Source: Closterium sp. NIES-65
Taxonomy: Eukaryota > Streptophyta > Zygnematophyceae > Desmidiales > Closteriaceae
Assembly (NCBI GenBank): GCA_948144175.1
Contig: CANXME010002069.1
Coordinates: 434,001-498,000, forward strand
Direction: 5' to 3'
Length of the DNA: 64,000 nucleotides
Shown piece by piece: positions 9,411-53,480 of this stretch; positions within the stretch are counted from its first letter, which is position 1, and the number at the start of each line of letters is the position of its first letter. The notes under the pieces were generated by a model. It had not been told where the DNA came from. It saw only the letters and a program-made list of their open reading frames with translations, and ran no database searches. Both the position numbers and the translations under genes were made by a program.

Positions 9411-9493
9411 CGACCTGCCCTGCCCGATGAGCACTGCACTGCTGTCACTACGTACCCTTCCCCTACTACTTGCACTGCGCCACTGTCGTCGTC

Positions 9494-20266: not shown

Positions 20267-20276
20267 GGGGGGGACG

Positions 20277-20998: not shown

Positions 20999-21008
20999 GG
21001 GGGGGACG

Positions 21009-21386: not shown

Positions 21387-21730
21387 TGACACCCGTTACA
21401 TTCCGCTTGCGCTTACCAGATACATGGAAGCTTCACAACGCTTTCCATGTCCAGCTACTGAAGCCCTACAAGGACCCCAACCAACAGTTCCAGGGACGGC
21501 AGCTACCACAACCACCACCTGTTCTCATACAGGATGAACCCGAGTACGAAGTGGAGCGTGTTCTCACTCATCGGCGCCGCGGCGGCAAGACCCTCGAGTT
21601 CCTGATCCACTGGACGGGATACGACCCCATTGAGGACAGTTGGGTTGCAGAAGCTGATATGGGCAACGCACGCCGTGCTCTCAAGGACTATCTTGTCAAC
21701 CAGGGTGTATCTCACGCCACCCAGCTTTGA
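21386..21730 (+). CDS. Orphan integrase C-terminus and chromodomain ORF, copy 2
   Basis: A second 114-residue open frame, again with an ATG made by the LTR end and TGACA. Nearly identical to copy 1; visible differences are RWMGYD against HWTGYD and NACRAL against NARRAL. It arose by the same tandem duplication. The chromodomain aromatic residues (Y, W) and the EDSW block are kept, so neither copy has gained a disabling change. Confidence 0.6.
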   Translation: MTPVTFRLRLPDTWKLHNAFHVQLLKPYKDPNQQFQGRQLPQPPPVLIQDEPEYEVERVLTHRRRGGKTLEFLIHWTGYDPIEDSWVAEADMGNARRALKDYLVNQGVSHATQL

Positions 21731-21740
21731 GGGGGGGACG

Positions 21741-22104
21741 TGTGAGAGTACGACGGCTTATGCCAGCTATGCTTGCTTGCCTTTACTTTATCATGCTATT
21801 TCTAGCATAGGATAATTTTATGCATGCATGAATGGCTTGATTTCTTAGGCTAGGTGCTTTCCTATATTTTATTATAGTTATAGCACCGAGCTAGGTTGCG
21901 TGCACCGAATTCTGGCTTTTCGGTTGCCACCGAATTGCCTTCTACCGAATTCGGGAAGGATCTGTTCGGGACGCTTCGCGACCCGCGGAACCTTTGCGAC
22001 ACCTGGTTACGGGGCCTTGTGTCGAGCCTATATATAGCCTCGTGTTGTACCCAGGTGATCATTCAATTACAATTCTCTTTTCTGAGCTCGATCCTAGATC
22101 CTCA
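21741..22104 (+). repeat. GYP1 3' LTR, the most diverged copy
   Basis: About 364 bp. The right half has many private changes (GGGAAGGATCTGTTC, GCTTCGCGACCC, GTGATCATTCAATTAC) and it ends CCTCA without the final CA. Its age agrees with GYP1 being an older insertion than GYP2. It abuts COP3 gag. Confidence 0.85.
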
Positions 22105-28123: not shown

Positions 28124-28278
28124 GACCTTGACAAAACCGTCTACCAAGTGTGCGGTAAACGCGCGGTTGTTGTCAGAGGTCCACTGGTGATCCCCGATTG
28201 ATCCTAGGGAAGGGTTACAGGCACGTTGGCCTGGGGGGTTATGGGCGCACTTACCCGCTACACAAACAAGCCCTTTTA

Positions 28279-30421: not shown

Positions 30422-33400
30422 ATGCAGCCGGTGCACCATGGGCGGCTGTTAAGGCGTGAGGGGGTGCTTCATCTGTGTCGGTTGCTGCTGCTTGCAGCGT
30501 GGGCAGCGGCGTGCATTGCCGGTGCATGGGGGCTGGCTGGGGACCACCGCGGCCTCAGAGGTACGCCCTCCTGCTGTGCTGGTGCTGAGTGCCGTTGAGT
30601 GCTGCTGCTGAGGGCTGCTGAGTGCTGCTGAGTAGTGCTGAATAGTTTGAGTGGTGCTGAATAGTTTGAGTGGTGCTGAATGGTGCTGAGTGGTCTGCCT
30701 CACAAACCCCTAAACCGATTTTTAAGGCTCCTGGTAAGGAGTTGAGAAGCAAGGGCTTTGTCAATAAGATGTGATGCAGAGCGGTGCTGACTGGTCCGCC
30801 TCACGAGCCCCTCTCGCCTCCAACGCTTCCCGTGCACCACCATTACACCACTCCCACACCACCCCCACACCACCCTCACACCACCCCCACACCACCCTCA
30901 CACCACCCCCACACCACCCCCACACCACCCCCACACCACCCCCACACCACCCCCACACCACCCTCACACCACCCCTACACCACCCCACACCACCCCCACA
31001 CCACCCTCACACCAGCCCCACACCAGCCCCACACCACCCTCACATCACACCACCCCCACACCACCCCCACACCACCCCCACACCACCCGCACACCACCCC
31101 CACACCACCCCCACACCACCCTCACACCACCCTCACACCACCTTCACACCACCTTCGCACCACCTTCACACCACCCTCACACCACCCTCACACCACCCTC
31201 ACACCACCTTCACACCACCTTCACACCACCCTCACACCACCCTCACACCACCCTCACACCACCCCCACACCACCTCACACCACCCTCGCACCACTCTCGC
31301 ACCACCCTCATTCCACTCTTACCCCACCCTCGTGCCACCCTCACACGACCTTGCGTCACATCACTCTCACATCACCCTCACACCACACCTCGCACCAGCC
31401 TCACACCCCCCTTCATCTCCCCGCCCCCCCCCCCAAACCCCCCTTCACCCCACCTCACGCCCCTCTCTCTCTCCCGCTCCCCCCCCCTCTCCCAGACTGT
31501 ACGGACATCTTGGCAGCAGGAGTGGCTCTCACGCCCACCACCGACACACACACCGCACCTGCCACCTCCGTGCCCCCCTCCTCCACCGCCAACTCGAATA
31601 GCACCTTCTTGAATTTCACCTCCCCCACTGTAGATGGCACCTCCCCCAACTCTACTGCCAGCAGCAGCAGGGCGGGCGAGTGGGGGCACCACCGGCGGTA
31701 CGAGCGGCGGGCGGGGCAGTGCTGGAGCCGGGCGGAGCTGCCTTGCTATGTGGGCATCAGCAGGCACACACGGGTGCAGCAAGAGCAACAACAAAGCAAA
31801 GAAAGCACGGGGGACATTTTTTCCCCCGAGGGAGCTGGGCAGAACGAACAGCAGCAGCATGGGATGTCGGAGCAGCTGCAGGTGAAGCTGCGGCAGTACC
31901 ACACGTACCGCCGCGAGTGCCTCCACCGCGAGCCCCTCCACCACCTGCGCTCCACCCTGCTCGCCGGCAAGCCCACCGCCTGCCGCTACCTTGTCTTCTA
32001 CCACCCGTCTGACGGCCAGGGCAACCGCCTCATCTCCCTCGTCTCCGCCTTTGCCTACGCGCTGCTGACCGATCGGATCTTCCTGTTGAGCTCTAAGAGT
32101 GGGCCCGCTGCCGTGCTGTGCGAACCGTTTGAGCACGGCGAGTCGTGGGTGCTGTTTGGGCGCGAGGAGAAGTTGGAGGAGCATCATGCGCAGGTGCTGG
32201 CGCTGAAGGTGGCGAGGGAGTGGAGGGAGGTGAGGGAGGGGAGGGAGAAGAAGGGGAAGAAGGGAGGTGGGCGGAGGAGGCTGGTGGAAGGTTTGGTGCA
32301 GAGGCAAGAGCAGTGGTTAGGGGAGTGGCAAATGCAGTTGGGAAGGCAGCAGCGTTTGCTGCAAAACATCAATCCAAACACGCCAGCACCACCATCACCA
32401 CCAACAGCACTGCCACCACCACCACCACCTACAGCGCCACCACCGCCACCACCACCACCACTAGCACCAACAACAGTTTCTACACCCACCTCTCCTATGT
32501 TTCCTCCCCCAATGCCTCCATCATTTCAACCCCCACCCTTACCTCCCCCTCCCCCTCCCCCTCCCCCTCCCCCTCCACCCCCACTCCCACCGATTCTTCC
32601 CATGCCAACCCCACCACTGCCACCCACTGCACTGCCACCACAAGCATCATCACTGTCACTACCAACGCCACCAACACCACCAACGCCATTTCCAACGCCA
32701 CCACCAGCAGAGGCAGCAGCAGCACCCCCACCACCCCCACCCTTACCCTCTCCGCCTCCCCCCCCACCATTCGAAACGCCAGCAGAAGGGGAGGACGAAA
32801 TACCACCAATGTATGTCATCCGTGCCAATGCCATCCTATGATGTCCCTTGGCATACCACTGTTTGTGCCATGCCATGTGTGGCATGCCCACGTGTGTGTG
32901 CCATGCCCATGTGTCTGTATGATTGCCATGACAGTTCACGGTAGTGTCATGCCATCATTTGAGGCAATGCCGTCACTCAATGCGTCACTGAATGCCATCA
33001 CTCGACACCCCTCTCTTCGCGATCTTGTCTCTACGCCCCTTCTCTGCCCCTGAGTCTGACCAGTCTCCCAAAGTCCCATTTCCCTTGCTCCACCATTCCC
33101 TCCCTCATAAGTCCATTCTTTCTCGTCTCCATTCCCCTCTCGTCCCCCCCTCGTAACCCCTCGTATCTCTCTCTCAACCCCATCCTCCCCTGCTAGTCAT
33201 TGAGTGGAAACCCACTCCCCTCCAGCCCTCTTCGTCTGCCTCGCAGCAGCCTCCCACACCCCCTCACTCCCCAAGTTCCCACTTACTTCCTTCCTGATTC
33301 CCCTCCAACACCCTCCCCATTCCCCCCACCCTCTCCCAGTCTAAAGGTGAACATCTTTCACACAACCTCTCGATCTGGGCAACTCTTTTTCTGCGAATTC

Positions 33401-37006: not shown

Positions 37007-40000
37007 TCAAGAAGAGAGCAAGTGAGGCAAGACAGGTACAAGACCCAGCTGGGTACAAAAGCGCTGATGGTCACAAGGCGCAAGTGCCTTGGTGAACACA
37101 TCAGCAGTGTTGGCCTCAGAGGCCACGTAAGCAAGTCGCAACTGACCACGCTGCTGCAGCTCACGAGCAAGGAAGTAGCGGAGAGCAATGTGCTTCGTTC
37201 TGTGCTCCAAGCGCTGCTCTCGACACAAGGCCAGCATGGCCTTGTTGTCTACGTACAGCACTGGAGGAGAACTAGGCGGCTCTCCAAGGTCGGTCAGCAG
37301 GTAGGTGAGCCAGCGAAGCTCCTGTGCAGCCATGGCCCCGGCGTAGATCTCAGCCTCACAACTGGAGCCGAGAACCGAAGACGAGCGAGTAGACCGCCAC
37401 GAGACAGAACCGGAACCAAGGCTGAAGGTGTAACCCTGTGACGACCGCTGCGTAGCCTGGTCGTCAGCCCAAGAAGCGTCCGCGTGGCCGGTAAGGACCA
37501 CTGGACTCCGCCCTCCAAGCACTAGCCCCATGCCCGACGTACTGCACAGGTAGCGCAATACCCTCTTCGCTGCAGCCATGTGCTCCGGTCTGTGTCTCCC
37601 AGGAGCAACATAGCGTGCAAGAATGCTAAGAGGGTATGCAAGGTCAGGTCGTGTGCAGGTCATCAGGTACATGAGGCAGCCAACAAGCTCTGCATACGGA
37701 CCACTCGACTCTACGGACTCATCCGAAGGCAGAGCTGAGAGTGAGTGGCGAGTAGGCAGAGGAGTGGCCTGAGGCGAGGAGTACGTGAAGCCGAAGCGCT
37801 GAAGGACCTGCTGCACCATGTGTGACTGAGTCAAGGTAATGGTGCCACGTGCTCTGTCCCGAGTGATCTGCAAGCCAAGGTAGCTGCGCAGTTCACCCAG
37901 GTCTGTGCACGTGTGTCTCTTCAGCAGCTCGGACTTCACGTAGGCGAGTCCAGCAGTGTCCGCTGTGGCAAAGACCAAGTCGTCGACGTACACGAGGATG
38001 TAGAACGGCGGCAGGGAAGTGTCGGTGCGAAGAAACAGCGACGGGTCAGCAGTAGAAGGAGCAAACCCAAGAGCCGCAAGCGTAGTCCTCAGTGTGTCGT
38101 GCCACTCACGCGGTGCCTGGCGGAGACCGTAGACTGGCCGTCGGAGGCTCCACTGGGTGCCAGGAGGGAAAGTCCCAGTGAAGCCAGGCGGACGGCGCAG
38201 CCAGATCTCCTCGTGCAGGCTACCCTGCAGGAACGCAGTGCTGAAGTCGAGGGAGTGAAGCTCGTAGTCGCGCTGAGCGGCAATGTGCAGCAGCACCCGA
38301 AGAGTGGTCATCTTCGGGGTGGGAGAGAAGGTCTGAAAGTAGTCAACTCCCTGCCGCTGACTGAAGCCACGAGCCACGTAACGCGCCTTGAAGACAGGCG
38401 GGGAGCCCGGCGGCCGCTTCACCCTGAAGATCCACATGCCACTGACGATGTTCGCCCGAGGAGGGGGAACCGCGTCAACGTAGGTGCCTGTGGACTTCCA
38501 GGAAGCCATCTCTGCATCCATAGCTGCCTGCCACTGAGAGGAGTAGGGACCCTCTACGGCCTCCGCGTAAGAACGCGGAGTCGGGATGTCTAGTGCATCC
38601 GGGTCTCCCTCAGGGGCAAGCAGTACAGACGCGAGATGAGGTGAAGCAGCCGCTAGACACTGTAACTCCTCCTGCCTGTCCTCTAGGACGTCCGTGCCAA
38701 GGGCACACTCACCCCCGACGGACGGAGGACAGGCGGACTCAGACTCAGCGACAAGACGAGCAGCGTAGTCTAGACGACAGCGCGCAGCAAAGTCGACAAG
38801 CTCAGTGACAAGGGCAGACGCAGCAGACGACTCAAAGGAAGGGTCAGTGACAGCAGTAGCAAGGAGACGCGTGACAGTAGGACTGGCAGCACGAAGAGAG
38901 TCCGACTCCGGGTCGGCAAGAGCAGGAAGAGAGGAAGCAGGAGGAGAAGGCAAAGGGGCACGCAGAGGAGCAGTGGACGGACGCAGTGACATCCGGTGCG
39001 TGCCAGGGACAGGAGGAGGACTCTGACGCGACCCGCGACCACTAGCGCGCTCAGTACGAACAGGCGACGCAGGACGAAACGCAGGCTCACGACGCTCAGT
39101 AAGACCTCCAGTCGGACCAGCGTAGGGAGAAGGAGCAGGCAAAGGGGAGGCAGGCTGTAGCCGTGGCTGTGACCGAACAGGCTGTGGACCCTCTAAGGAA
39201 GCAGGAGGAGGTGCAAGACCAAGAACCTGCTGTAGGAGCGGAACGAAGTACGGTCGAGGCCGCACGGCGACACCAGAAACAGCAGGAACAGCACCAGTCC
39301 CCCCGTCAGGAGGACCCACGCCAGCAGCACCTCCAGCAGCACCTCCAGAAGCTCCAGAACCCCCACCAGCAGCACCAGGAGCACTGTCAGTCGGACCACC
39401 AGTGGCAGGCTCAGCGCCAACACCCTCAGCAGCACCAGCTCCAGGAGAACTCTCAGACCGAGCAGCTCCAGCACCCACAGTACGAGCACCGTCGGGACGC
39501 GCGGCAGCAGTACCCACTGCAGGCGAAGAACCACCAGCACCAGCAGCACGCCTCCAGCGCCTGGTAAACCACTCACGTAGCTCCTGTGGGGAGAGTGGCT
39601 CCCGGCGAGACGAAGCACCCCCAGGCTCAGCACCCCCAGGCTCAGCACCCCCAGGCACAGCACCCCCAGGCTCAGCACCCCCAGGCTCAGCACCCCCAGG
39701 CACAGCACCCCCAGGCTCAGCACCCCCAGGCTCAGCACCCCCAGGCACAGCACCCCCAGGCTCAGCACCCCCAGGCTCAGCACCCCCAGGCACAGCACCC
39801 CCAGGCTCAGCACCCCCAGACTCAGCACCCCTAGGCTCAGCACCCCCAGGAACAGCACCCCCAGGCTCGACACCTCCAGGCTCAGCACCCCCAGGCACAA
39901 TTCCCCCAGGCTCAGCACCCCCAGACCCCGCACCCTCAGGCTCAGCTCCCGCAGCAGCACCAGAGTCACCAGTGACCTCGACAGGCTCGACCGCGTCTAC

Positions 40001-41957
40001 CTGGGACACACCTGAAGGGGCAGGACCCTGAGGGGGGAGGGGGACTACCGGGGGGGGGCCTGGTACCAAGAAGAGCGGGGGCGGGGGGAGGGACGGAGTG
40101 CGGTAGGGGAAGAGGCGGTAGTAGGGTACCGACTCGTCGAACGTGACGTCCTGGGAGGACAGAACACGTCGAGAGGTGGGGTGGTAAAACTGCCACCCAG
40201 GGGCGTCGGGGGGGAACCCCAGGAAGACGCAGGGAGAAGCACGAGGGGACAGCTTGTCCGCAGACAGGTCGCGAACAAACGCCCGAGATCCCCAGACCCG
40301 GAACGCCGACGCATCGCCAACCTTCCCCGTCCACAGGAGGGCTGGGGAGGTCTCTGGTCGAGAGACCCTGGGGTGGAGGTTGATCTGGTGCGCAGCGTAC
40401 CTGACCGCAAACGGCCACAGAAAATGGGGAGCAGCCGCATGCATCATGGACGTACGAGCGACGTCCATGACCATGCCAATGCGGCGCTCAGCAATCCCAT
40501 TCTGCTGTGGTGAGTCCGGAAGCGTGAAGGTCTGACGGATGCCCCGCACACGACAGTAGGCACTCAGGAGGCCAGAGGAGAACTCTCCGCCTCTGTCCGA
40601 GTGCAGACGCAAAACAGGGAAGTCAGAGCCAAAGCTCCTCCGAAGCTGAAGACGAGCTGCGCGGATCCAGTCGATCAACACCTCAGTGACCTCACCCTTG
40701 CTGCGCAAGGGGAAGACTGTGGTGTAACGCGAGTAGTCGTCAACCACTAGCAGGAAGTAGCGCTCCTGACCCTGTCCACGGACGCGGGCTGGGCCCCACA
40801 CGTCCATGTGAAGCGTCTGCAACGGGGCCTCTGTCGGAGGAAACTGGGAGGAGTGAGGGGCAGCACGCTGGCGCCCCTCGACACAGGGGACACAGGCAGG
40901 GCCAGGGCCCGGAGGAAGGGGAGGGAGGGACCGGGGAAGACCAGACACAAGGACCCGCGAGGCCATGCCTCTGAGCCGAAGCAGAGAGGGGTGGCCAAGG
41001 CGGTGGTGCCAGAGGAGTGTCTCGTGAGACAGACGACGACACGAACAGGGGGCAGACTCAGGACCAGACCTGGACGCTGCAGCAAACACCTGACCAGACG
41101 AAGGGACTCTACCAGACGCAGTACCTGGAGGAGAAGCAGTGGTCAGTGTGTACAGGCTCGACCCTGGCCGACGTGTAAACGTAGCCAGGTGACGACCTGT
41201 ATCCGCCTCCGTACAGTGGGTCACCCGCTGACGAGCAGGGGTGAACTGGTGGACACCTGCATCCTGGAGGTCAGCACCACTCACCAAGTTCGTCGAGAAC
41301 GAGGGGAGGTAGAGACCAGTCAGGGTGCCAGAGGGGGCCGCTGGACACGGGAGGACAGTGGAGAAGCGAGACAGGACAGGTCCCCCAGAGGGGTCAGCCA
41401 GGGACACCGCAACCGGCCGACTCAGCGGCGTGAGAGTGGTGCGGTCCCTAAAGAAGGAGCGAGACGCTCCAGAGTCAAGGGTGAAGGTGTGAGAGGCCGA
41501 AGCCGACACAGTACCTGAGAGCGCGGACTCACCAGCACCTGAGAGCACAGACGCACTGGCACCTAGAGCTGCAGCCTCACTAGTACCTGACGCGGCAGTA
41601 CCAATGCCCGGGTCGGGCGGGAAACACCGGTAACAGTCATCCTCATCACTACCAGTCACAGCATACATAGCAGAGAGAATAGCATCAAAGTCAAGATCAT
41701 AAATAGCTACTCCAGCCCTAGACAGCTCTCCCCAGCGGGGGATCTCAGCGGCCTCCGGAAACTGCTGACGCCAGGCGTCGGTCAGGCGGCCAAAGCAGCG
41801 ACGGGCTGTGTGGGCGCCCCCACACCTCTCCCCCGCACGGTCACCGGTGCGAAGAACGTAGGGGCAGGGACCAAGTGCACCACCGCGCTGACGCTGCAAG
41901 TACCACTCACGGAGCTGCTGAGGGCCGGGGACGGTGCGAGAGCGCTGCTGCTGCTGC

Positions 41958-42004
<47 letters not shown>

Positions 42005-43078
42005 CTGACCACCCCCAGAGCTGCTCCGCTGAGACGAGCCACTCCGACCCCCGCCTCCACCGCCACCCCCGCCTCCACCGCCGCCCCCGTCTCCACCGCC
42101 ACCTCCCCCACCAGGACCGTCGCTCCCACCGCTCCCACCGCCTCCTCCGCTACCACCTCCGCCGCCACCTCCGCCTCCACCGCCGCCACTAGCACCTCCA
42201 CTCCCGCCACCACCCCCACCGCCACTCCCACTCCCCCCTCCACCCCCACCGCCTCCTCCACCGCCCCCTCTAGCTCCACCCGCCCCCTTGCCCCCCTTGC
42301 CCTTGCCAGAGCGGCGTCTGCCGCTGGGGGCAGACGCCGCGCCGACCGACTCAAAACCAGCGAGGTCGGCCGCAGCGGCAGAGGCGACAGAGGGCAGCAG
42401 GGGGGAAGGACCACACCCCTCAAAGATGGGGGTGCGAGGGTCACCCCGAGAGGCCCCTACAGCGACAATACTCTTCTCAGCCGCTAGCAGGGACTCCTCA
42501 AGGAGGTCGACAGTGAGAGTGGTGGGACAGACAGAGAGAAACTGGTCCCTAACGACACGAAGGGACTCAGGGAGACGGGTGACGAGAAAGTAGAGAGTGA
42601 TGTACATGGGAGGAGGGTTCGCAGCGCGGAACTCAGCAGGAAGGGCAGCACGGTAGCGGGTGTCACTAGCGCGGAGGTGGGTAACTAGGTCAGCAACAGT
42701 GGGAAAGGAAGCGAGGTCAGGGAAGAGAAACGGTAGCATGAGGCGGCTAAGGGTAGCGGAGGAAGGGGAGGAGTAGCGTGCAACTACAGCGTCGTACAAG
42801 GCCTGAGCGGTCTTGCACTGACTAAAGTGGGCACGCTCAGAGGAAGGGAGGTGGCGACGCACAGCAAGACGTGCAGCAGCATCGCGGGTCGCCCACTTGG
42901 AGCGAGCAGCAGAGTCAGCATCAGCAGGCGGGGCAGGGACAGCGCCAGAGACAAAGTCAAAGAGAGAGACCCCATCTATCGCATCACACAGTAAGTACAG
43001 CTGCAGGTCTTCAATCCAGACGGCAAAGTCAATGGCCCTCCCCTCAGCGTCAAAAGTAAGAACATTGGGGGTGGCCAT
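37007..43078 (-). CDS. COP5 gag-pol polyprotein, intact
   Basis: About 2,023 aa from ATG 43078 ([13 protein letters not shown]); the frame is open upstream to 43099. Order: gag (to about residue 240, with [13 protein letters not shown]); Gly-rich tract (about 265-365) and Gln tract; spaced Cys/His motif ([26 protein letters not shown]); protease [12 protein letters not shown]; integrase with WHHRLGHPS and CVPCVEG, then catalytic Asp (LHMDVWGP), Asp (LHSDRGGEF) and Glu (NGIAERR); [14 protein letters not shown] linker; RT with [11 protein letters not shown]; RNase H with [21 protein letters not shown] and YVDNKA. No frameshift or stop. The protein makes the particle, processes itself, copies RNA into DNA and integrates it. 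It lacks a compact CX2CX4HX4C knuckle. Confidence 0.95.
39600..39960 (-). repeat. 15-bp coding minisatellite in the COP5 linker
   Basis: Tandem units encoding GAEPG or GAVPG with a higher-order period of three units (45 bp: [15 protein letters not shown]). Confidence 0.9.
41945..42001 (-). repeat. CAG repeat encoding polyglutamine in COP5
   Basis: About 18 CAG codons on the sense strand with one CCG interruption, after the Gly-rich tract. COP2 has a shorter version at 10530-10560. Confidence 0.9.
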
Positions 43079-44211
43079 GGCAGCAGCTGAAAGTCTCACC
43101 GGGCTAGGAGAGTCGGGTAGGACAGCAGCAGGCAGCTCGGGCTGGGTCGGGCGGCTCGGGCGGCTCGGGCGGCTCGGGCGGCTCGGGTAGTTCGGGTACC
43201 GGGCGGCTCGGCTGCTGCTGGGCGGCTCGGCTGCTGCTGGGCGGCTCGGTTGCTGCTGGGCGGCTCGGCTGCTGCTGGGTGCTCGGCTGCGGCTGGGCGG
43301 CTCGGCTGCTGCTGGGCGGCTCGGCGGGGCCGTTAGGGTGCAGCTGCAGGGCCGGGACAGGGGACGGCGGGGCCGTCAGGGTGCAGCGGCGGGGCCGGGG
43401 CAGGGGACGGCGGGGCCGTCAGGGTGCAGCGGCGGGGCCGGGACAGGGGTCGGCGGAGCCGTCAGGTGGCGGGCCAGCAGGCGAGGTGGCGAGCCGTCAG
43501 GTGAGGCGGCGGGGCCGTCAGGTCAGGTGGCGGGCCAGCAGGTGAGGCGGCGGGGCCGTCAGGTCAGGTGGCGGGCCAGCGGGTGAGGCGGCGGGCCGTC
43601 AGGTGAGGTGGCGGGCCAGCAGGTCAGGCGGCGGGCCGTCAGGTGAGGCGGCGGGGCCGTCAAGTCAGGTGGCGGGCCAGTAGGTGAGGCGGCGGGCCGT
43701 CAGGTGAGGCGGCGGGGCCGTCAGGTAAGGTGGCGGCGGGCCGTCAGGTGAGGCGGCGGGGCCGTCAGGTAAGGTGGCGGGCCAGCAGGTGAGACGGTGG
43801 GCCGTCAGGTGAGGCGGGGGGGCCGTCTGGTGAGGTGGCGGGCCAGAAGTCGAGGCAGCGGGCCGTCAGGTGAGGCGGCGGCCGTCAGGTAAGGCGGCTG
43901 CGGGGCCGAAAGAGGTGCAGCGGGGGGGGCCTGCTGCAGCGACGAAGAGGCCGCGCGGCCGTCTAGAGGGCGGCGCGGCGCGGCAGAGCCGAGAGGGCGG
44001 CGCGGCGCGGCTGTAAGGGCCGCGCGAAGTGGGGCCTGGGCCGCGCGCGCGAAAAAAATTGAGTCGCGCGCGCGACTCTCGGGGCGCCACAAGGGCAGCT
44101 CGACGCGCACTAGGGGGAGCGCGCCTCGGGGAGAATAGGGCGCGCTCCGGGCAGGAAAAAAAAAAAAAAAAAATCGTGGGTGGGCCCAAAGAACGGTCCT
44201 TAGGAGGGACC
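43079..44211 (-). repeat. COP5 leader with GC-rich minisatellites
   Basis: CGGCTCGGG and CTGCTGCTGGGCGGCTCGG units at 43140-43330, then roughly twenty GGCGGGCC(A/G)(G/T)CAGGTGAGGC-like units at 43440-43880, and an A18 run at 44156-44173. Same position as the leader repeats of COP1, COP2 and COP7 but a different main unit. Confidence 0.88.
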
Positions 44212-44642: not shown

Positions 44643-45775
44643 ATGCGTCCACCTCTCCCCGACCTGGAAGCAACGAGGGTGGTGGCAACAACGTTAGCGA
44701 AGGAGGCACGAGGGTGACGCGTAGTGTGATTTGGGCCGCCGACGTCGGCGTCGGTGGAATGCATGCGCGGGTATTGCAGTCGGGGGCTGCGGTCAGCTTG
44801 CAAGACGACGTCGATGGTCGACGTCGATCTCTCCAGTGAAGCGGATCCGGACGAACTTCGGCGACCTACATTTCAGCCGGCTAGGACAGCGGCATCGCTC
44901 CGACCTACGGCTACTTCAAGTTCTCATCGAACAAGTGCTCGAAGATCGACATGACCTTATCACGTGGATGGAGTCGATTGAGCCGAAGCTGGAGATCATG
45001 GGCCCGAAGAAGTTCGTCATGGGAGCGCTGTACAAAGACGACGCCGAAGATGGAGATCATGGGCCCGAAGAAGTTCGTCAATGGACGGAATGCTGCGCCG
45101 CCCACCTGCTGACTTTCTTGGTCATTTTCGCGGTGTTGCTCGTTGATGGTGCAAGCTGCTTTGTAGCCTTGCCGACTTCGAATGAACGTTGGCTTCGAGG
45201 CGTGGGAGTTTATCATGTAGGCCTACAAGGCGACCGCCGACCTCTACATCGGAGTGGTTGGCCAACATCAACATTGGCGAGCAAGAGTCGGCGACAGAGC
45301 ACTGTATGACCGACCTGCGGTTGGCCGACGTCGACTACTTGGCAGCGTCCTACATTACACACGTCGTCAAGGTTCTCCTACGGGCTACAACCTGATGCGC
45401 CGAGTGAAGGCATGCGCACGCAACTCTATGTGGAATCCTAAGGCGAGCTTCATCATCCAAGATAAAATCATGCAGGAGTCAGAGCGGCCCACGGAGCTTC
45501 TTCTGCAGCCCAACTACGCTGCCTCGCATAACAAGGACGTCAGCATGTGTAATGTAGGGAGTCGGGCAGAGGTGGAGGCGGTAAATCGACAAGCAACAAG
45601 TCGGCAAACGGAGCGGACTGCTAGACGCTGGCTAAGGATAATGAACGCAGTGGTAGGTGCCAAGGTGGGCGCCAGTGCTCCATTTGTGGCGACCTTGACC
45701 ATCTTGCCTATGATTGTTCTGACCAGGAGGAGTATGCTGGCGGCCAGAAGGCTAACCACGGGATAATCGACGGCG
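44643..45775 (+). pseudogene. Gag remnant of an older retrotransposon, 5' part
   Basis: Broken coding sequence from about ATG 44643 (MRPPLPDLEATRV). Frameshifts separate readable blocks: LLQVLIEQVLEDRHDLITWM near 44915-44975, then a CCHC zinc knuckle CSICGDLDHLAYDC at 45676-45717 after a basic region, then DQEEYAGG. A 61-bp tandem duplication (GGAGATCATGGGCCCGAAGA at 44991 and 45052) falls inside. The knuckle places it as a retroelement gag, probably Copia type, but no other domain is preserved. GYP3 interrupts it, and it seems to continue at 53277. Confidence 0.6.
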
Positions 45776-46336
45776 TGTCAGAATTATGAGGTTAAGGCCT
45801 AAGAAATCCTGATAGAGGGTGTAGCGGAAAGCAAAGGCGGAAAACATGTACATTTGTATATAAGCAAAACCGATTGTGGCGAGGGCAGTAACGGCAGCGG
45901 CGTGGCGGGGTGAGACAGGTAGAGGGAAGGTGGGGCGAGGAACGGGATTCGGGGTGCGCTGGCAGGGTTACAGCGAGATGACGTGGAGGAGGGTGCGGGT
46001 GGGGAGCTTACTGTGTGATGTGTGGTGTACATGTGTGTGCTTTGGTTTCTTCTTGCAGACACCGAGTCCAGGACAGAGCTGGGAAGCAGCAAAGCCAGCT
46101 GGAGACGGGTGGAAGAGCATTGTGGATGGCAAGCTAGGTAGCCTAGCACTGTTGCTTTGTTAGGCCAGCCTTGCTAGGGTTTGTGTAGGGAAGCTTAAGG
46201 CAGGGTCCTGGGCCATGGGACTGCCACTGCGTGTTTGTTTTCGTGAATTACTGCAGCATTCTGTTTTCAAGATAAGCAGTCTTAGCACGGAGCCATAACC
46301 GCAGTCAGGATGAGTTAGGAGGTAGCTGAACTGACA
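45776..46336 (+). repeat. GYP3 5' LTR
   Basis: 561 bp with inverted ends TGTCAG...CTGACA. A TATATAAG box is at 45857-45864, and a TTTCTTCTTGCAG stretch ends near 46059. No clear initiator-tRNA primer site follows; the gag ATG is only 12 bp downstream. Confidence 0.92.
45857..45864 (+). promoter_or_regulatory. TATA box of the GYP3 LTR
   Basis: TATATAAG about 82 bp into the LTR, also at 52516-52523 in the 3' copy. Confidence 0.5.
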
Positions 46337-46348
46337 AGCACGCACTCC

Positions 46349-48464
46349 ATGCAACTGAGATCGGGACGACAGCTAGAGCCGGTGACGGTCAGGCCTAGTT
46401 CGAACGGAGAGATGCGGAACAAAGAAGGGGGTCCGCGGGAGACGGGAAGAACGGAGGGCCAGCAGGGCCTCAGTGAAGGAGCGAGTGGTCCGCAAGGCGG
46501 CGCTCGGGAAGAACCAGGCGATGGCGGGAAGAATGCGCCCGAGGAGCAGCGGGAAAGCCAGCGCAGCCAGATGCCGGGGCGCCCGCAGCCGGGGGGACCA
46601 AGTGCGTATTAGCGGAGCGTTTCGTGGCAAGGAACCGAAGACGAGACGACGCTGCAGCGATGGAAGTACACGCAGCTGCCCAAGATAGAAGTGCCTGAGA
46701 GATTCTCGGGAGACGCAAGACGGGGGCCGAGTCTTAAAAACTACATCATGCAGCTGGAAAACCTCCAGGCGCGTTGGGCGAAGGATCGGTTGGATCCGGA
46801 AGAATTCTTCAGAGGCTTGGCAAATACCTTGGCTGGCGAGGCGGAGACCTACTACATAATTTCCAGGAGAGAGCTGCTGGAGTGGTCTGCGGGACGAGCG
46901 CCAGGCGAACGGGACCCGACGGTGCACTTCTTATCGATGCTCCGCGAGCAGTTCCCGCTACAAACCGCGGAAAGGGTGGTCGAGTTCCGAGGATTCCGCC
47001 GTCGGGAAGGGGAATCATTGTTGGCGTACTACGGGAGACTCGTGGAGCTGGGGGAGGACATGAACTGCACGGACCAGGGACGGCTGATTGGGAAGTTTGT
47101 AAACGGATTGAGCCAGCCACTGCGACAGGACGTGGAAGTGCGAGTGTTCGAAATGGGATCAGAAGCCACCTTGAGGGAAGCCTATGAGATCGTGAAACGC
47201 GTGGAGACCAGGCGTCGGCTATATGAAGTGGAGCGGACGGCGGATAGAGGACCAGAGAGGAGGCGGCCGGCATGGGGAGCGGCGTCGGCCTACCCAGAGG
47301 CAGAGGAGAGGGCGCGAGAGGAGCCGCGGAGATGTCACAACTGCGGTCTAACCGGGCATCTCCGACGAGATTGCCGTAACCCTGCGGCTTGCTCGCTGTG
47401 TGGCAGCCGAGAGCACATGCGAAGGGAATGCCCAGGTGTGCCAACTTGTACGAGGTGCGGTCGCAAAGGACACCGCGAAGCGGATTGCTACGCGGGAAGA
47501 CGGGACCGCCGGGGCGCAGAAGCAGGGGAGGATCGCCAAGCCACTATCGCGCGACTGCGGGCGCAGCTAGCCGACTTAGAGGCTGCCGAGCAGAAGGAAC
47601 CGGCCATGGTAGCACACGAAGATGAAGACGCGGAGGAACCGGAGTTTATTCTCATGGCTCAGCCGTCGCGAGAGCGTGACAAATTGGGCTTGCGGAGGGC
47701 CACAAGGAGGCAGAACTTCCCTGAAGACGTGCGGCGAGAAGCGGGACCAAGGCGGCGAGCTAGTGATCGCCCGGAGGGAGCGGGAGCAACATATCGGCAC
47801 CCAAGAGAGAGAATGGCCTGTCAGGCCACCGTGCTGACTATAGCCGCCGGACCGGTTACTATCGGAGGCTTCACGGCGCAACGAGCAATAGTGGACACGG
47901 GAGCCGCGCATGTGTTGATTGGCAAGAGCCTGGCGGAAAAGCTGCAGCTGCACAAGCCGGGACGGCTGATCACAGAAGGATACCTCTTAATGACGCCCGA
48001 TGGGGGAGAGGCGAAATGGATGCCCAAGACAAGGCAATCCATATCCCTGGTGTTGAACCCAGGAACTGCGGAGGAGTGTGCGCTGAGAGTGGACTGCGGA
48101 GTGTCGGAATCAGAGGATTTTGATTTGCTCATCGGGGTGGAATACCTGTTCCGGATCGGAGCCACCATCTGCATGTGGGAGGAGAAGGTGCAATATCGGG
48201 TGTGCTACTGGGAAGACGACGGGCCAATTGGCAACTTGCCAGTGCGCTTTGTGAGAAGGGAACCACGAGAAGCCTACCAGTGCACAGAAGCGGAGATACG
48301 GGAGGAGCTGGGCATACCCACCTGGCAGCAGATCTCGCGGCTGCCAGCGCCGCAGGCGGATCCGGCAGAGGGAGAACCAGACCTCAAGGCGCTGTGCACC
48401 GATACCAAGCGGCTACTGGGACCGACGGTTGTGCTCGACCTTTTTGGCGGTATCGGAACAGGGG
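46349..48464 (+). pseudogene. GYP3 gag and aspartic protease
   Basis: One frame from ATG 46349 (MQLRSGRQLEPV), broken only by TAG at 46610-46612. Gag: KIEVPERFSGDARR, the capsid region FLSMLREQFPLQTAERVVEF and LIGKFVNGLSQPLRQDV, then three zinc knuckles in a row: CHNCGLTGHLRRDC, CSLCGSREHMRREC and CTRCGRKGHREADC (47335-47495). Protease: AIVDTGAAHVLIG near 47890 (D-T-G-A active site) with LLIGVEYLF as the second conserved block. The frame then enters the methyltransferase motif I VVLDLFGGIGTG at 48431 and loses it at a GGGG run (48461-48464). Three knuckles are more than the one in the GYP1/2/4 family. Confidence 0.85.
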
Positions 48465-49622
48465 CTGGCGGCAGTGCTGAAGTCAGGTATCAGCGTGGAA
48501 AAGTGGATCTTGGTGGAGAGTGACATGGAGGCGGCTAAGATGGCAGTGGGCCACGCACACAAGCTGCATGAACGTTACCCGCATCAATTCTGCACCGCCA
48601 CCTTGGACCACAGTATGCTATGCGGGGCCAGCAACATCCGACACGTCGATGAACAGCAGTTGCGCGAATGGGGGAGAACTGACATAGTGGTGGCAGGATG
48701 GGAGTGCCAGGGCTACTCACGAGCAGGAGAAGGGAGAGGCATGAGAGACGATAGGAGCAGTCTGTTCCGGGAGTTGCAGCGAGTGTTGGGGCTGATCAAA
48801 AGAATCCAGGGAGATGTGCTGTACATAGTTGAGAACGTGGATATGGAAGGAGACATAAGGGAGTAGGTGCAGCTGGCGCATGAGGAAATCACAACGGTGC
48901 TGGGGCCAGGCGTGGTGATAGACGGAGCGCAAATAGGGAGCAGGACACACCGAGTGCGAAGATTTTGGACGAATGGGATCAATGACGCTGCACTACAGTA
49001 TCGCCTGTCCCTGATGGAGCGGCCAGTTCCCCGCTTGGTAGAGGACATTATAGAACCAGGGAGGCTGGCGGCACTGGTGACAAGGCTGGATCACCCAGCT
49101 CAGTTCCCTTGTAACGAAGTAGGGAAGCCAAGGCAGGCCTGGCCGACGTTCGTCTCCTACCGAAACGCGGCAGCCTTCAGGATGCACGGGGACGACCCAG
49201 GCCCAGGCATGGTCTACGACTGCACGGCCGGGGAGTGGCAGGAACCTACGGCGCTGGAGAGGGAGCTGGCAATGGGCTTCATGGAGGACGCAACCGCACA
49301 CCCGGAGGTGACGCAAGACGAGAGAAGGAGAGCGCTGGGCAGGGCCATGGATCTCAACGTCATGCATTGGCTCGTCGCCACCATCCGCATGTACCACTCC
49401 CAGCTGCGGTGGGAGCGGAAGAGAGACAAGGCGGTAGCAGTGCGCCCACCTACGGAGAGATTGGCGGCGAAGGAGGCCATGGCGCGGGCAATGCTGGGTG
49501 AGATACAGGAACAGGACGAGCGGCAACATGAGCTGGGGCACCCACTGGAGCGAAGATGGGTTTACCCCTGGGAGGAGCACGATGAAAGGCCAGCAGTGTA
49601 CGCCGAACAGGAGGAGATCTGA
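48428..49622 (+). pseudogene. GYP3 cytosine-5 DNA methyltransferase domain, Dnmt3-like
   Basis: Catalytic domain of a C5-cytosine methyltransferase fused between protease and RT; it would methylate DNA using S-adenosylmethionine. Motifs: I VVLDLFGGIGTG (48428-48463), continuing in frame 0 as GLAAVLKSG after one extra G; II/III LVESDMEA; IV VVAGWECQGYS (catalytic Cys codon 48705-48707); VI LYIVENVDM (about 48822); VIII GSRTHRVRRFW (about 48938); IX/X ELAMGFMED and GRAMDLNVMHWLV (49263-49377). The order and the RxHRxRxFW and GRxxxxxVxxxL patterns resemble Dnmt3/DRM-type catalytic domains. Motif IV has Glu-Cys where nearly all family members have Pro-Cys. TAG at 48864-48866 and the motif I frameshift disable this copy; TGA at 49620 ends it. 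Confidence 0.9.
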
Positions 49623-49934
49623 CTGCCAGCAGAGCGTGAGGAGGAAGCGGTGGACAAGAAGCGGGAAGACTACGGCTGGCTAGAAGAGGCAATCGAGAGG
49701 CAGCGGCGCTGAGAGCGGGAAGAGCAGGAGTTCGGCTACAGTGGCTTCGCCCTAATGGCAGCAACGAGAGAGACAGCTGCTGTCACGGAGCCAGCAGGAA
49801 GTGAGAATACGGGTAGCAACACAGAGACAGGAGGGGCAACGGCCATGGGAAGGGAGGAGGCAGAGCAGCCACCCGTAAAGGAAGAGCGAGTGCAGTAGGC
49901 AGAGCGATAGCCGGAGTGGGTAATCGGAGGAGGG
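49623..49934 (+). other. Linker between methyltransferase and RT, with stops
   Basis: Reads in the RT frame as a charged linker (AEREEEAVDKKREDYGW, then ETAAVTEPAGSENTG) with TGA at 49710 and TAG at 49896-49898 after a CAG. It joins into the start of RT (KLKEVLTRHRAAFAYSLKEV). Confidence 0.65.
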
Positions 49935-50990
49935 GTGTCAGAGGAGGACGCCACGAAGTTGAAAGAAGTCCTGACTAGGCACCGGGCCGCGTTCGCATAC
50001 TCACTGAAGGAGGTTGGGCGGTGCAACATGGCGGTGGTCACGTTGGATTTGACGACAGACATCCTAGTGTATCAGCGGCGGCGACGCATGACAGCGGAAG
50101 AGACACAGATATGTAAGGAGAAATGTGAGGAGCTGCTAGCGGCAGGCTTCATCCGGAAATCGAATTCAGAATACGCAGCAGCCACGGTAGTAGCAGCCCG
50201 AACAGACCTGACAGGCAAGGTGCTTTCCAAGAGAATGTGTGGGGATTACCGGGGCCTCAACAAAATCATGATCATGAAAAGGTATCAGACGCCAATGCCG
50301 GACGAAATCTTTGATCGGCTAGCCGAAGCGCTCGTGTTTACGACGTTAGACTTGCGTCAGGGGTTTAACCAGATCCCCATAGCCGAAGCAGACAAGAAGA
50401 AGACAGCGTTTCATGGGCCAGACGGGCAATACGAATGGAACTTCCTGCCCTTCGGGCTGAAGACCGCATCGCCAGAGTTCCAGCGGGTCATGGACCAGGT
50501 GCTGCGGGAGGTTAAGAACGCAGCATGTTACATCGACGACGTCATCGTGTTCAGCACAGATAGCAGCTCGCACGTGCAGGATGTAGAGGCCGCGCTGAGC
50601 GCCATTCAGGGGGCAGGCCTGACCTGCCATCCAGGGAAGTGCAAGTTCGGGCAAACGACAGTCGAGTACCTGGGGTTCGAGGTGGAAGGGGGGAGGATTG
50701 GGATTCAGAAGGCGAAAGTGGAATTACTGGACCGCGTGGCCACACCGACGGACCGGACTACCTTGCGGGCGCTGCTGGGGTTCTTAAACTACTACCGCGC
50801 CGCAGCACTGAACCAGCTACTCAGGGACGACAAGCCGTGGGAATGGGGACCAGACCAAGAAAGGGCGGTGCAGGACCTGATGGAAGCCGTGAAGAATGGG
50901 GTAGTGCTGGAGCTGCCCAGAGCGGACTTGCCCTTCACCCTATACACGACTGGAGTAGTGCGGGCATGGGGGCGGTGCTGGCGCAGATGA
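49935..50990 (+). pseudogene. GYP3 reverse transcriptase
   Basis: Gypsy RT in the same frame as the methyltransferase: RRRRMTAEETQICKEKCEEL, then SKRMCGDYRGLNK, FTTLDLRQGFNQIP, FLPFGLKTASPEFQRVMDQV, the catalytic CYIDDVIVFS, HPGKCKFGQTTVEYLGF and LRALLGFLNYYR. Unlike the GYP1/2/4 family it keeps a sense codon after DLRQGF. It breaks near 50950, where one missing base moves RNase H to another frame. The RT domain itself looks complete. Confidence 0.88.
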
Positions 50991-51270
50991 AGGGTGAGGT
51001 GGAGAAGGTGGTGGCCTTCGCTAGCCGAAGCTGCAACGCGGCAGAAGCCAACTACTCATCGTACGAAGGGGAGGGGCTGGCGGTAGTCTGGGCGGTGAAG
51101 CACTTCAGGGTCTACCTGCAGGGAAGGAAGTTCACGCTGGTGACAGACCACCAGCCGCTGCTCTGGCTTATGCAGACACCTGACCTGACTGGGAGGAACG
51201 CTCGCTGGGCAATGAAGTTACAGGAATATGATTTTGAGATCCGGCACCGCCCAGGCAAGACCATGCAGCA
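50944..51270 (+). pseudogene. GYP3 RNase H, then an internal deletion
   Basis: Reads DWSSAGMGAVLAQ, FASRSCNAAEANYSSYEGEG, VVWAVKHFRVYLQG, TLVTDHQPLLWL and IRHRPGKTMQHV, the RNase H and tether of Ty3/Gypsy. After MQHV (51270) the sequence jumps into the middle of integrase, so the rest of the tether and the HHCC zinc domain are missing. Confidence 0.85.
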
Positions 51271-52205
51271 TGTGGGATAGAAGGTACATCCTCCTTATGG
51301 TGGAGCATGTCAGCAAGTGGGCCGAAGCGAGGCCGCTAGTGCACAAGACGGCTGAGGCGGTAGCAGAGGCGTTTGAGGAGATGGTTATTACCAGGCTGGG
51401 GGCATGCGGGGAGGTATTGACAGATCAGGGCACAGAGTTCGAAGGGGCCTTTGACCTGCTGCTGAAGGCCAGCGGCATACGGCATCGGTCAACCTCACGA
51501 TACCATCCGCAGAGCGACGGCTTGACAGAACGGCTGGTGCAGACGGTCAAACGAGGGCTGAGGGCCTATGGGGAGGAGCACAAGCGGGACTGGGATAGGA
51601 AACTGTGCTGGGTCATGGCGGGCTATCGCTTCAGCAAGCAGGCAGCTTTGAAGGATGTGTCGCCTTACTACCTATTGTTTGGCAAGGAGCCGGTTATGCC
51701 GGTGGGAGCGCCACGCCTGCTCCTGGATGTGGTCACGACAGGCTCAGCTGAGAAGTGGGTGGCAGTGGCGGATGCACGGGCAGCGTACCTAAGGCAGCTA
51801 CTGCCATCAGCCCTGGAGAACCTGCACGTTGCTCAGCTGCGGGATATCGAGAGGTACAAGCAGCGGCAGGAGGCAAACGGCAAAGGAGCCAGGATAGGAG
51901 TGCGGGAGGAGGAAGAGGTGTACCTTCGGCGGCAGCGGAGGCACGCCCTGGACGTGGGGCTCTCGCAGCAGCGGTGGACGGTAAAGGAGGTACGGCCATC
52001 GGGAGTCATAGTGCTGGAGGACGGGACGGGGAAGCGGGTGGCAGATCACGTGACAAATGTGGCCAGGATTCGAGGGGAGAGGGGCAAGAACGTACCTCAG
52101 GGTCCTATGACACGCGCGAGGACGGCGGCCATGTGCCATGGGAGGGGGCAAGGAGGTACTCAAGAAAGGAAGGATGAAAGCAAAGGGAAGGGGAAAGTGG
52201 GGTAA
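51270..52205 (+). pseudogene. GYP3 integrase, N-terminally truncated
   Basis: Starts within the core at RRYILLMVEHVSKWAEARPL; the HHCC domain and the first catalytic Asp are deleted. The second Asp (LTDQGTEFEG) and the Glu (QSDGLTERLVQTVK) are present, followed by YLLFGKEPVMP and a C-terminal region (RRQRRHALDVGLSQQRWTVK, then VIVLEDGTGKRVADHV) without an obvious chromodomain. It ends at 52205 and overlaps the start of the 283-bp repeat. It cannot catalyse integration. Confidence 0.85.
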
Positions 52206-52433
52206 AGACCACACGGGAGGAAGGAGTGGGGCAGAGAGGAGGGCAAGGGGAGCCGTAGGATGGAACCAGGTGTAGGATGGTGGGAGGGAAGAGCAGAAGA
52301 AATGAGGGCACCGCAAGAAAGGGCTAGATGGGAACACGGGCACCTGAGCAGTGCAGTAAGGAAGCAAGGCAGCAGGAGGGAATAGGTTGGGGGGAGAGAT
52401 ACAGCAACCATGGGAGTGGGGAGTTTCCGACAG
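52151..52433 (+). repeat. 283-bp direct repeat, copy before the GYP3 3' LTR
   Basis: From AAGGAGGTACTCAAG to TTTCCGACAG, covering the end of the integrase frame and the purine-rich 3' untranslated region. Repeated almost exactly at 52994-53276. Confidence 0.93.
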
Positions 52434-52434
52434 C

Positions 52435-52993
52435 TGTCAGAATTCTGAGGTTAAGGTCTAAGAAATCCTGACAGAGGGTGTAGCGGAAAGCAAAGGCGGA
52501 AAACATGTACATTTGTATATAAGCGAAACCGATTGTGGCGAGGGCAGTAACGGCAGCGGCGTGGCGGGGTGAGACAGGTAGAGGGAAGGTGGGGCAAGGA
52601 ACGGGATTCGGGGTGCGCTGGCAGGGTTACAGCGAGATGACGTGGAGGAGGGTGCGGGTGGGGAGCTTACTGTGTGATGTGTGGTGTGCATGTGTGTGCT
52701 TTGGTTTCTTCTTGCAGACACTGAGTCCAGGATAGAGCTGGGAAGCAGCAAAGCAAGCTGGAGACGGGTGGAAGAGCATTGTGGATGGCAAGCTAGGTAG
52801 CCTAGCACTGTTGCTTTGTTAGGCCAGCCTTGCTAGGGTTTGTGTAGGGAAGCTTAAGGCAGGGTCCTGGGCCATGGGACTGCCACTGCGTGTTTGTTTT
52901 CGTGAATTACTGCAGCATTCTGTTTTCAAGATAAGCAGTCTTAGCACGGAGCCATAACCGCAGTCAGGATGAGTTAGGAGGTAGCTGAACTGA
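52435..52993 (+). repeat. GYP3 3' LTR
   Basis: 559 bp, TGTCAGAATTCTG to GCTGAACTGA, lacking the terminal CA of the 5' copy. Differences from the 5' LTR are mostly transitions (for example GGCCTAAG/GGTCTAAG, GGGGCGAGG/GGGGCAAGG). Confidence 0.92.
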
Positions 52994-53276
52994 AGGAGGT
53001 ACTCAAGAAAGGAAGGATGAAAGCAAAGGGAAGGGGAAAGTGGGGTAAAGACCACACGGGAGGAAGGAGTGGGGCAGAGAGGAGGGCAAGGGGAGCCGTA
53101 GGATGGAACCAGGTGTAGGATGGTGGGAGGGAAGAGCAGAAGAAATGAGGGCACCACAAGAAAGGGCTAGATGGGAACACGGGCACCTAAGCAGTGCAGT
53201 AAGGAAGCAAGGCAGCAGGAGGGAATAGGTTGGGGGGAGAGATACAGCAACCATGGGAGTGGGGAGTTTCCGACAG
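52994..53276 (+). repeat. 283-bp direct repeat, copy after the GYP3 3' LTR
   Basis: Fused directly to the LTR end (CTGA, then AGGAGGTACTC) and ending CCGACAG, precisely where copy 1 meets the LTR, but followed by GCGACCGTC of the host. Confidence 0.93.
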
Positions 53277-53480
53277 GCGACCGTCATCGTCGTGGCAACC
53301 AGCCTTGCAAGGGAAGCTGCCGTCGAAGACGTCATTGGCAAAAGATGCTGACACCTCCAGCGGCAATGCACGCGGTGACGGAGCGGCCTCGTGCTCGATG
53401 GTTGGCGTGGTGAAGCCGGCGATCTCGCTGGCTCCAGAGGCCGGCGAGGACATCCATGTCAAGAATCTAACGGACGAGAA
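53277..53480 (+). pseudogene. Gag remnant of the older retrotransposon, 3' part
   Basis: Probable continuation of 44643-45775 after removal of GYP3: the left side ends ATCGACGGCG and this side starts GCGACCGTC. The joined frame runs on as DRHRRGNQPCKGSCRRRRHW to a stop at 53413. Assignment rests on position and frame, not on a recognised domain. Confidence 0.4.

Follow-up and report, generated by a model that had tools for sequence, protein, structure and literature searches.

The stretch of DNA analyzed here, called the window throughout, comprises 64,000 nucleotides of Closterium sp. NIES-65 and corresponds to G000:C1771:434001-498000 in an 874-Mb assembly of 2400 contigs. A Ty3/Gypsy element was located at positions 45776-53275 of its + strand, and a DNMT3-type cytosine-C5 methyltransferase was found between the protease and the reverse transcriptase (RT) of this element. 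The domain order, established on the + strand by Pfam and by comparison with other copies, was gag zinc knuckles, protease, C5 methyltransferase, RT, RNase H and integrase. This agreed with an earlier note, made from the letters of the sequence alone, in which a methyltransferase had been placed between the protease and RT of a Gypsy element; the D-T-G-A and YIDD quoted there were also present, at about 47893 and about 50530. The zf-CCHC and aspartyl protease matches spanned 46691-48523. PF00145 (DNA_methylase) matched 48402-49622 with an E-value of 4.5e-7 when the translation was read with X at the stops, and RVT_1 and rve were found with E-values of 1e-29 and 1e-7, the latter slightly below its cut-off. 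RVT_1, RT_RNaseH, Integrase_H2C2 and rve were all recognized in copies L027 and L013, giving the protein order of a Gypsy-type element.

The window copy is dead. Its reading frame shifts inside motif I of the methyltransferase, motif I being in the gag-protease frame and the remainder in the RT frame, and five in-frame stops stand between motif I and the start of RT. The earlier statement that the domain shares the RT frame was therefore correct for the part after motif I only. A second frame change was located within RNase H. Where RNase H borders on the integrase, the window copy lacks about 0.54 kb that is present in the near-identical copy L009. The two copies were 99.4-99.6% identical across the element and its flanks and had the flanks and the GGCG duplication in common, so L009 represents either the second haplotype or a segmental duplicate of recent origin. 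The domain was also said to lie between long terminal repeats (LTRs). Direct repeats do exist, but they do not form a plain LTR pair: the order is A, coding region, B, A', B', where A and A' were 98.4% and B and B' 99.3% identical. Its proteins thus identify the element as Gypsy, and the layout of its termini is non-canonical (Table 1).

Table 1. Features of the methyltransferase-bearing Gypsy element (window positions).
Feature	Position	Strand	Basis
Target-site duplication GGCG, left	45772..45775		Sequence; same 4 bases at 53276-53279
Terminal segment A, begins TGTC, in 5' LTR position	45776..46333	+	Repeat of 52435-52992
Presumed primer-binding region directly 3' of A	46334..46365	+	Partly conserved between subfamilies
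gag with CCHC zinc knuckles	46691..47800	+	Pfam zf-CCHC, E 1e-9
Retropepsin-type protease, D-T-G-A at about 47893	47850..48400	+	Pfam Asp_protease_2, E 1.2e-5
C5 cytosine methyltransferase, DNMT3 type, unpermuted, motif E-C-Q	48424..49410	+	Frame broken after motif I, and stops; type and fold from other copies
Methyltransferase-RT linker, with stops in the window copy	49411..49934	+	Copy comparison
Ty3/Gypsy reverse transcriptase, YIDD at about 50530	49935..50800	+	Pfam RVT_1, E 1e-29
RNase H, with frame change in the window copy	50801..51280	+	Similarity to other copies; Pfam RNase H in L027 and L013
Integrase, 5' part lost (about 0.54 kb relative to L009)	51281..52149	+	Pfam rve and copy comparison
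Polypurine tract GGGAGGGGGC immediately 5' of B	52140..52149	+	Found in 7/7 copies compared and in L031
Segment B, first copy, ends GACA	52150..52432	+	Repeat of 52993-53275
Palindrome GACAGCTGTC at the B/A joint, proposed integrase cutting site	52429..52438		GC spacer in every B/A joint found; one changed base beside the spacer in L023
Segment A, second copy	52435..52992	+	Repeat of 45776-46333
Segment B, second copy, ends GACA (right end of the element)	52993..53275	+	Repeat of 52150-52432
Target-site duplication GGCG, right	53276..53279		Sequence; L009 identical here

On the evidence of profiles and a predicted fold, METHYLTRANSFERASE was classed as a C5 methyltransferase of the DNMT3 type with unpermuted motifs. 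Motifs I, IV, VI, VIII and X could be read in order in the window, as the earlier note had reported, and they aligned without the DRM permutation in other copies; the glutamate of motif VI and the arginine of motif VIII were invariant in an alignment of 12 rows. A profile of 12 relatives was compared with the PDB, where DNMT3A was the best match (E-value of 2e-22), and DRM (4e-12, over partial length), M.HhaI (3e-11) and tRNA/Dnmt2 enzymes (1e-7) were matched as well. The DRM match covered a part only, as was expected, since DRM is a permuted relative. The AlphaFold2 model of the L027 domain had a mean predicted local distance difference test score (pLDDT) of 93.0 and a predicted template modelling score (pTM) of 0.91. 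When this model was submitted to Foldseek, DNMT3A, DNMT3B and DNMT3C were matched over the whole domain, with E-values down to 4e-20 and template modelling scores of 0.79-0.82 by target length (best 20 rows). An origin from DRM, DNMT1 or Dnmt2 was also considered and rejected, DNMT3A being far ahead, DRM matching partially and DNMT1 not being named in the best 60 of 67 PDB matches. In a tree of the domains, the 10 Closterium rows formed one group (95/93); with one short DNMT3A on a long branch as its outgroup, the tree does not tell if retrotransposon domains are a single clade apart from the DNMT3s of hosts.

Further, the domain was followed through the genome. When the domain was searched for as DNA, 40 places were scored out of 416 candidates. 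Among 34 fetched copies, 31 carried the domain, namely 20 of 20 together with L031 and L032 (the 22 domain-picked copies) and 9 of the 12 picked by RT. All of the 20 showed the gag-protease-DNMT order, and in 19 of them RT, RNase H and the integrase, the last at least in part, were present as well. Because these first copies had been chosen by the domain, a search starting from RT was performed, which gave 150 scored places from 10,398 candidates. The pairing of RT with DNMT used the best 50 of these 150 places and part of the DNMT places, and a methyltransferase lay directly upstream at 35 of the 50, among the matches listed. The 12 RT-picked copies consisted of 6 of the 15 unpaired ones and 6 distant ones (63-71% RT identity), the distant copies having been selected for long open frames and not at random. 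All six distant copies were among the nine that bore the domain. The other three lacked it and, within the 2.5 kb examined, lacked the protease too, hence they look truncated. Copies without the domain, which the earlier note had named as evidence that would count against its claim, were encountered among the 34 fetched copies as these three only, and a protease directly followed by RT was seen in none of the copies examined.

The distances of DNMT and RT were correlated (r 0.863), and none of 2000 permutations gave a value as high; the comparison used the 20 sequences in which each of the two domains covered 150 profile positions or more, drawn from 132 proteins and two locus translations (170 of 190 pairs). 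The median ratio of nonsynonymous to synonymous substitution rates (dN/dS) was 0.082 for DNMT, 0.055 for RT, 0.051 for the integrase, 0.030 for RNase H, 0.066 for gag and 0.064 for the protease. The pairs were restricted to dS of 0.1-1.5, stop codons were skipped, and the DNMT value came from 90 of the 210 pairs among 21 sequences, some of which were near-identical haplotype copies. Between subfamilies dS was saturated (window copy versus L027, dS 2.3 and dN 0.08). These ratios indicate that the methyltransferase domain is under strong purifying selection. In this one assembly PF00145 exceeded its cut-off at 123 of 123 scored places from 901 candidates, host genes and possible haplotype copies included; the domain match in the element is therefore not due to chance. 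The stop-free frames around the 123 places were at least 1000 amino acids long in 42 cases and at least 1700 in 19, which means that copies with uninterrupted frames exist. The domain was found at the same position in copies from many contigs with RT identities as low as 63%, in several of them within a single open frame, and also in further Closterium strains and in metagenomes. Based on the copy survey, the correlation and the RT-picked copies, it was concluded that the domain belongs to the element, as the earlier note had stated, and that it co-varies with the RT and is selectively maintained in a large Closterium family.

The ends of the element read TGTC... and ...GACA, and of the 11 distinct sites that were resolved, 10 had a perfect 4-bp duplication (GGCG twice, TGAA, GAGT, TATA, GGTG, TCCC, AACG, GGCC and CTGG). 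TG...CA ends with a short target duplication are a trait of LTR elements. In the site count, copies with the same flanks were merged (L009 with the window copy; L010/L011; L012/L013; L016/L018; L017/L019/L020/L021; L024/L026). A complete pair of ends was not obtained for L014, L022, L028 and L032, nor the right end of L019. The surroundings of L016 and L018 are a satellite of ~60-bp units. Four layouts were recorded: A-coding-B in L010/11, L015, L016/18, L025 and L027; A-coding-B-A-B in window/L009, L012/13, L017/20/21 and L031; A-coding-B-A-B-A-B in L023; and A-B-A-coding-B in L024/26, the last with a TCCC duplication. Identical long repeats at both ends, typical of LTR elements, were not found, as the left end was A and the right end was B. 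A plain LTR pair was rejected on account of these layouts and of the repeat borders.

In the seven copies compared, B starts where the conserved purine tract ends, and A stops directly before a partly conserved block. Such borders would be expected from reverse transcription for a repeat of the order B-A and not A-B, so the integration borders sit inside the repeat, at the B/A joint. This joint reads GACA-GC-TGTC in the joints found, or GAGA-GC-TGTC in L023. It was proposed that reverse transcription would yield complementary DNA (cDNA) with B-A repeats, the polypurine tract and the primer site marking their borders, and that this cDNA would circularize with one or two repeats. The integrase of the element would then cut the palindrome at the B/A joint, producing two CA-ended termini, which would join the target with a 4-bp duplication. 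A one-repeat circle opened in this way would give A-coding-B, a two-repeat circle would give A-coding-B-A-B or A-B-A-coding-B, and the A/B joint would be a scar of circle closure. If each strand of the palindrome were cut after CA, the two ends would resemble those that retroviral integrases produce by 3' processing. HIV-1 integrase has reportedly cut a palindromic sequence. According to PMC1180852, palindromic 2-LTR (LTR-LTR) junctions are cut by the foamy-virus integrase. The ends, the 4-bp duplications, the layouts and the repeat borders suggest that the integrase of the Closterium element opens circular DNA at its GACA-GC-TGTC palindrome.

The usual P-C of motif IV, a trait of DNMT3 and of active C5 methyltransferases, was not found in the Closterium domain. 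All 21 of the NIES-65 copies that were compared had glutamate in place of the proline of the catalytic P-C-Q, and L018 had lost the glutamine as well. Motif IV was read only where the pattern matched, that is in 56 proteins and in 6 of 9 among the RT-picked copies. E-C-Q was read in 30 of the 32 readable Closterium proteins, the others having S-C-Q and E-S-Q (one each), and the catalytic cysteine was retained in 31 of 32. S-C-Q was read in P0008 and in the NIES-65 copy L038. Outside Closterium, P-C-Q was present in 22 of 24 proteins, and E-C-Q in two metagenome proteins, P0112 and P0125. In the tree the two metagenome E-C-Q rows fell within another group (92/88), apart from Closterium, hence the change from proline to glutamate may have arisen more than once. 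In C5 methyltransferases in general, the proline of the P-C motif matters for activity.

Judged from selection, the enzyme matters to the element. Owing to its place in Pol, the methyltransferase would enter the particle together with the cDNA. With less assurance, it would methylate the cDNA or the circle before integration, so that new copies would arrive already marked; alternatively, if the E-C-Q enzyme is inactive, it would act on DNA via binding. Of the roles considered, such pre-integration methylation is the likeliest, and the self-methylation of new copies that the earlier note had suggested is retained in the same conditional sense. Methylation of cDNA before integration was proposed by de Mendoza et al. 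for DIRS elements (PMC5890265).

Taken as a whole, the explanation appears probable: the window holds a decayed member of a DNMT3-Gypsy family, integration would proceed by the opening of circles, and the methyltransferase would serve in pre-integration methylation or in DNA binding. Several points weigh against this explanation. Motif IV is without its usual proline, and the Klebsormidium domain gave no methylation in yeast (PMC5890265). Since human DNMT3B failed there too, this negative result with KnitGypsy was described as inconclusive by its authors. CpG transitions were 1.6 to 2.3 times those of other C/G in three of four copies (3.5 / 1.5% in the window copy, 2.3 / 1.4% in L012 and 7.6 / 4.8% in L014), not in L010 (0.9 / 1.1%), which is a weak sign of methylation that leaves its agent unspecified. 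The site of L016/L018, inside the satellite, is without a perfect duplication (GGGA versus GGGG). Neither circles nor transcripts nor enzyme activity have been observed. The reverse-transcription primer was not identified in the block after A, which was inspected without a wider primer search, and no tRNA gene was found in the window. The form A-coding-B could also derive from A-coding-B-A-B by recombination of B with B.

This last point leads to an account in which the odd terminal forms are products of recombination within or between ordinary insertions, and A-coding-B-A-B is the inherited founding form. The B-by-B exchange would keep the target duplication, and the two B-A units of L023 were identical over the 765 bp compared, resembling a later unequal exchange. 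As later recombination can also multiply B-A units, the opening of circles is offered as an inference and not as proof. Nevertheless, A-B-A-coding-B with its TCCC duplication (L024/L026) is not derivable by a single exchange within A-coding-B-A-B, and the borders of reverse transcription differed from those of integration in the forms compared; because they do not coincide, a permutation step is needed in any case. The recombination account was consequently judged rather unlikely. A separate insertion of the methyltransferase block in the window copy, or an assembly join, has a negligible probability: the frame change at the start of the domain would suit it, but the block occupies the same position in the 31 of 34 copies, on many contigs, and recurs in further strains of Closterium and in metagenomes. 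Capture or misassembly of the methyltransferase was ruled out by the same survey together with the DNMT/RT correlation and the RT-picked copies.

A serious rival to pre-integration methylation is a binding role without catalysis, in which the methyltransferase would no longer methylate and would persist in the particle as a component that binds DNA, RNA or a cofactor, akin in spirit to DNMT3L. The glutamate in place of proline in 30 of 32 Closterium proteins and 21 of 21 copies fits such a role, as does the inactivity of KnitGypsy-Dnmt3 in yeast, the latter being weakened by the failure of human DNMT3B. The retention of the cysteine in 31 of 32 proteins, the invariant residues of motifs VI and VIII and the strength of purifying selection argue against it, and the binding role was rated as possible yet improbable. 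That the enzyme serves the host, by restraining the copy number of the element or by feeding host methylation, was raised as a possibility by de Mendoza et al. in 2018 (PMC5890265); selection on a gene of the element has a simpler explanation in the replication of the element itself, and this alternative was considered very unlikely.

The kind of element is already known, as the charophyte KnitGypsy-Dnmt3 was published in 2018 (PMC5890265). According to the earlier note, methyltransferase-bearing retrotransposons had been described in charophytes and dinoflagellates only; the host is itself a charophyte, so there is no novelty on that count, and the stated range also looks too narrow. A profile search revealed related methyltransferase-retroelement proteins in Marchantia polymorpha, Calypogeia fissa and Sphagnum (P0021, P0043-P0050, P0052-P0054, P0056-P0060 and others among the relatives). 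The Marchantia protein P0047 contains the methyltransferase followed by RT and RNase H in one chain, and P0052 the methyltransferase and RNase H; P0021 and P0043 were ~41% identical to L027 over the domain. The bryophyte relatives read P-C-Q, and a D-S-G-A protease-like stretch was read by eye upstream of the domain in relatives, with no Pfam call in P0043. In Calypogeia and Sphagnum, RT and the methyltransferase were not encountered together in one protein, and the link of these two to Gypsy would depend on this common upstream stretch, read as gag/protease-like. The Marchantia proteins P0043 and P0046 stop soon after the methyltransferase, so RT may sit in a second frame in liverworts (gag-protease-methyltransferase / RT-integrase). 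No Klebsormidium relative was named in the protein searches, in each of which the 8000 candidates sharing most words were scored. PHD fingers occur in the relatives P0065, P0121, P0127 and P0129 (Marchantia, metagenome and others), after rve in P0127; a simple PHD pattern found none, and Pfam found the domain in P0065 and P0127. Because of these fingers, some family members may combine histone-reading and DNA-methylating parts.

In the open-licence literature no reports of bryophyte methyltransferase-retroelement proteins or of methyltransferase retrotransposons in Closterium were found. Transposons encoding DNA methylases were stated to be absent from land plants "such as tracheophytes" by Morozov et al. 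(PMC6338049). PMC12344493 mentions DNMT3 carried by retrotransposons of streptophytes and dinoflagellates, gives Copia as the LTR family, refers to Marchantia for N4-methylcytosine (4mC) and does not contain the word Closterium, and the Closterium genome-size paper (PMC10407611) does not contain the word methyltransferase. The additions made here are the E-C-Q motif, the bryophyte relatives, and the TGTC...GACA ends with 4-bp duplications in several layouts. A broader scenario is conceivable, although the odds are somewhat against it: a streptophyte-wide Gypsy lineage, reaching from charophytes to peat moss and liverworts, would have acquired DNMT3 once and kept it, its reverse-transcription ends would be separate from its integration ends, its DDE integrase would cut the repeat palindrome in circular DNA, and the Closterium methyltransferase, remodelled from proline to glutamate under purifying selection, would act on the circles of the element as a working enzyme or a binding module.

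Other repeats were recorded in the window and the genome. Gypsy elements without a methyltransferase lie at 4281-7211 and 16900-20300 (both + strand). In the open reading frame 4281-5480 protease and RT are only ~150 residues apart, and the frame 18695-20266 ends in a chromodomain. Copia elements were found in both orientations, at 9470-13300 (+), 13960-15474 (+), 37007-43099 (-) and 25877-28147 (-), and one of them has an open frame of 2030 amino acids containing internal short tandem repeats. Tandem repeats of 732 bp and an 11-bp tandem array were located at 19908-22033 and 30741-31400. Elsewhere, three PF00145 places 7064 bp apart, with identical open frames of 1368 amino acids, were found at G000:C995:460522-474898 and probably represent tandem copies of the element or of a gene that descends from it. 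The copies L017, L019 and L020 (G000:C1144) and L021 (G000:C1287) share the left flank TATA, with steps of ~155 kb and 134 kb on one contig, which points to a segmental duplication carrying the element. G000:C708 holds the copies L003/L010.

Methyltransferase-bearing Gypsy elements are more than a curiosity of one alga. Their relatives reach land plants with tractable genetics, such as Marchantia, which offers a direct test of why a transposon bears a silencing-type enzyme, and the terminal forms are a natural test of whether a DDE integrase normally uses circular DNA.

Among known systems, DIRS and PAT-like elements have the order A-coding-B-A-B in published descriptions, as does the Closterium element. 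A circular intermediate is presumed for DIRS and PAT-like elements. KnitGypsy-Dnmt3 of Klebsormidium nitens, likened to the Closterium element by its published description and not by sequence (PMC5890265), has Gypsy domains with an unrearranged DNMT3-type domain in Pol, a DIRS-like repeat order A-coding-B-A-B (legend of Fig. 4c, compared with the window and other copies) and purifying selection on the domain, for which the Closterium median dN/dS is the value given above. The Closterium element differs in its zygnematophyte host, with PF00145 at 123 places of 901 candidates, in its E-C-Q motif, whereas the key residues are stated to be conserved in the 2018 paper, and in the duplications and several terminal forms that were demonstrated. 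SymbioDIRS-Dnmt3 and SymbioLINE-Dnmt of Symbiodinium are likewise described as retrotransposons bearing a C5 methyltransferase, and the former has a DNMT3-type domain in Pol with A-coding-B-A-B repeats (PMC5890265). They belong to DIRS, with a tyrosine recombinase, and to LINE, and are held by the same authors to be independent of the Gypsy case, whereas the Closterium element has a DDE-type integrase (rve) and 4-bp target duplications. The tyrosine recombinase and the lack of target duplication that characterize DIRS and PAT were not found in it; where those elements are described as using a tyrosine recombinase, the Closterium element has an H2C2-rve integrase and duplicates 4 bp of its target.

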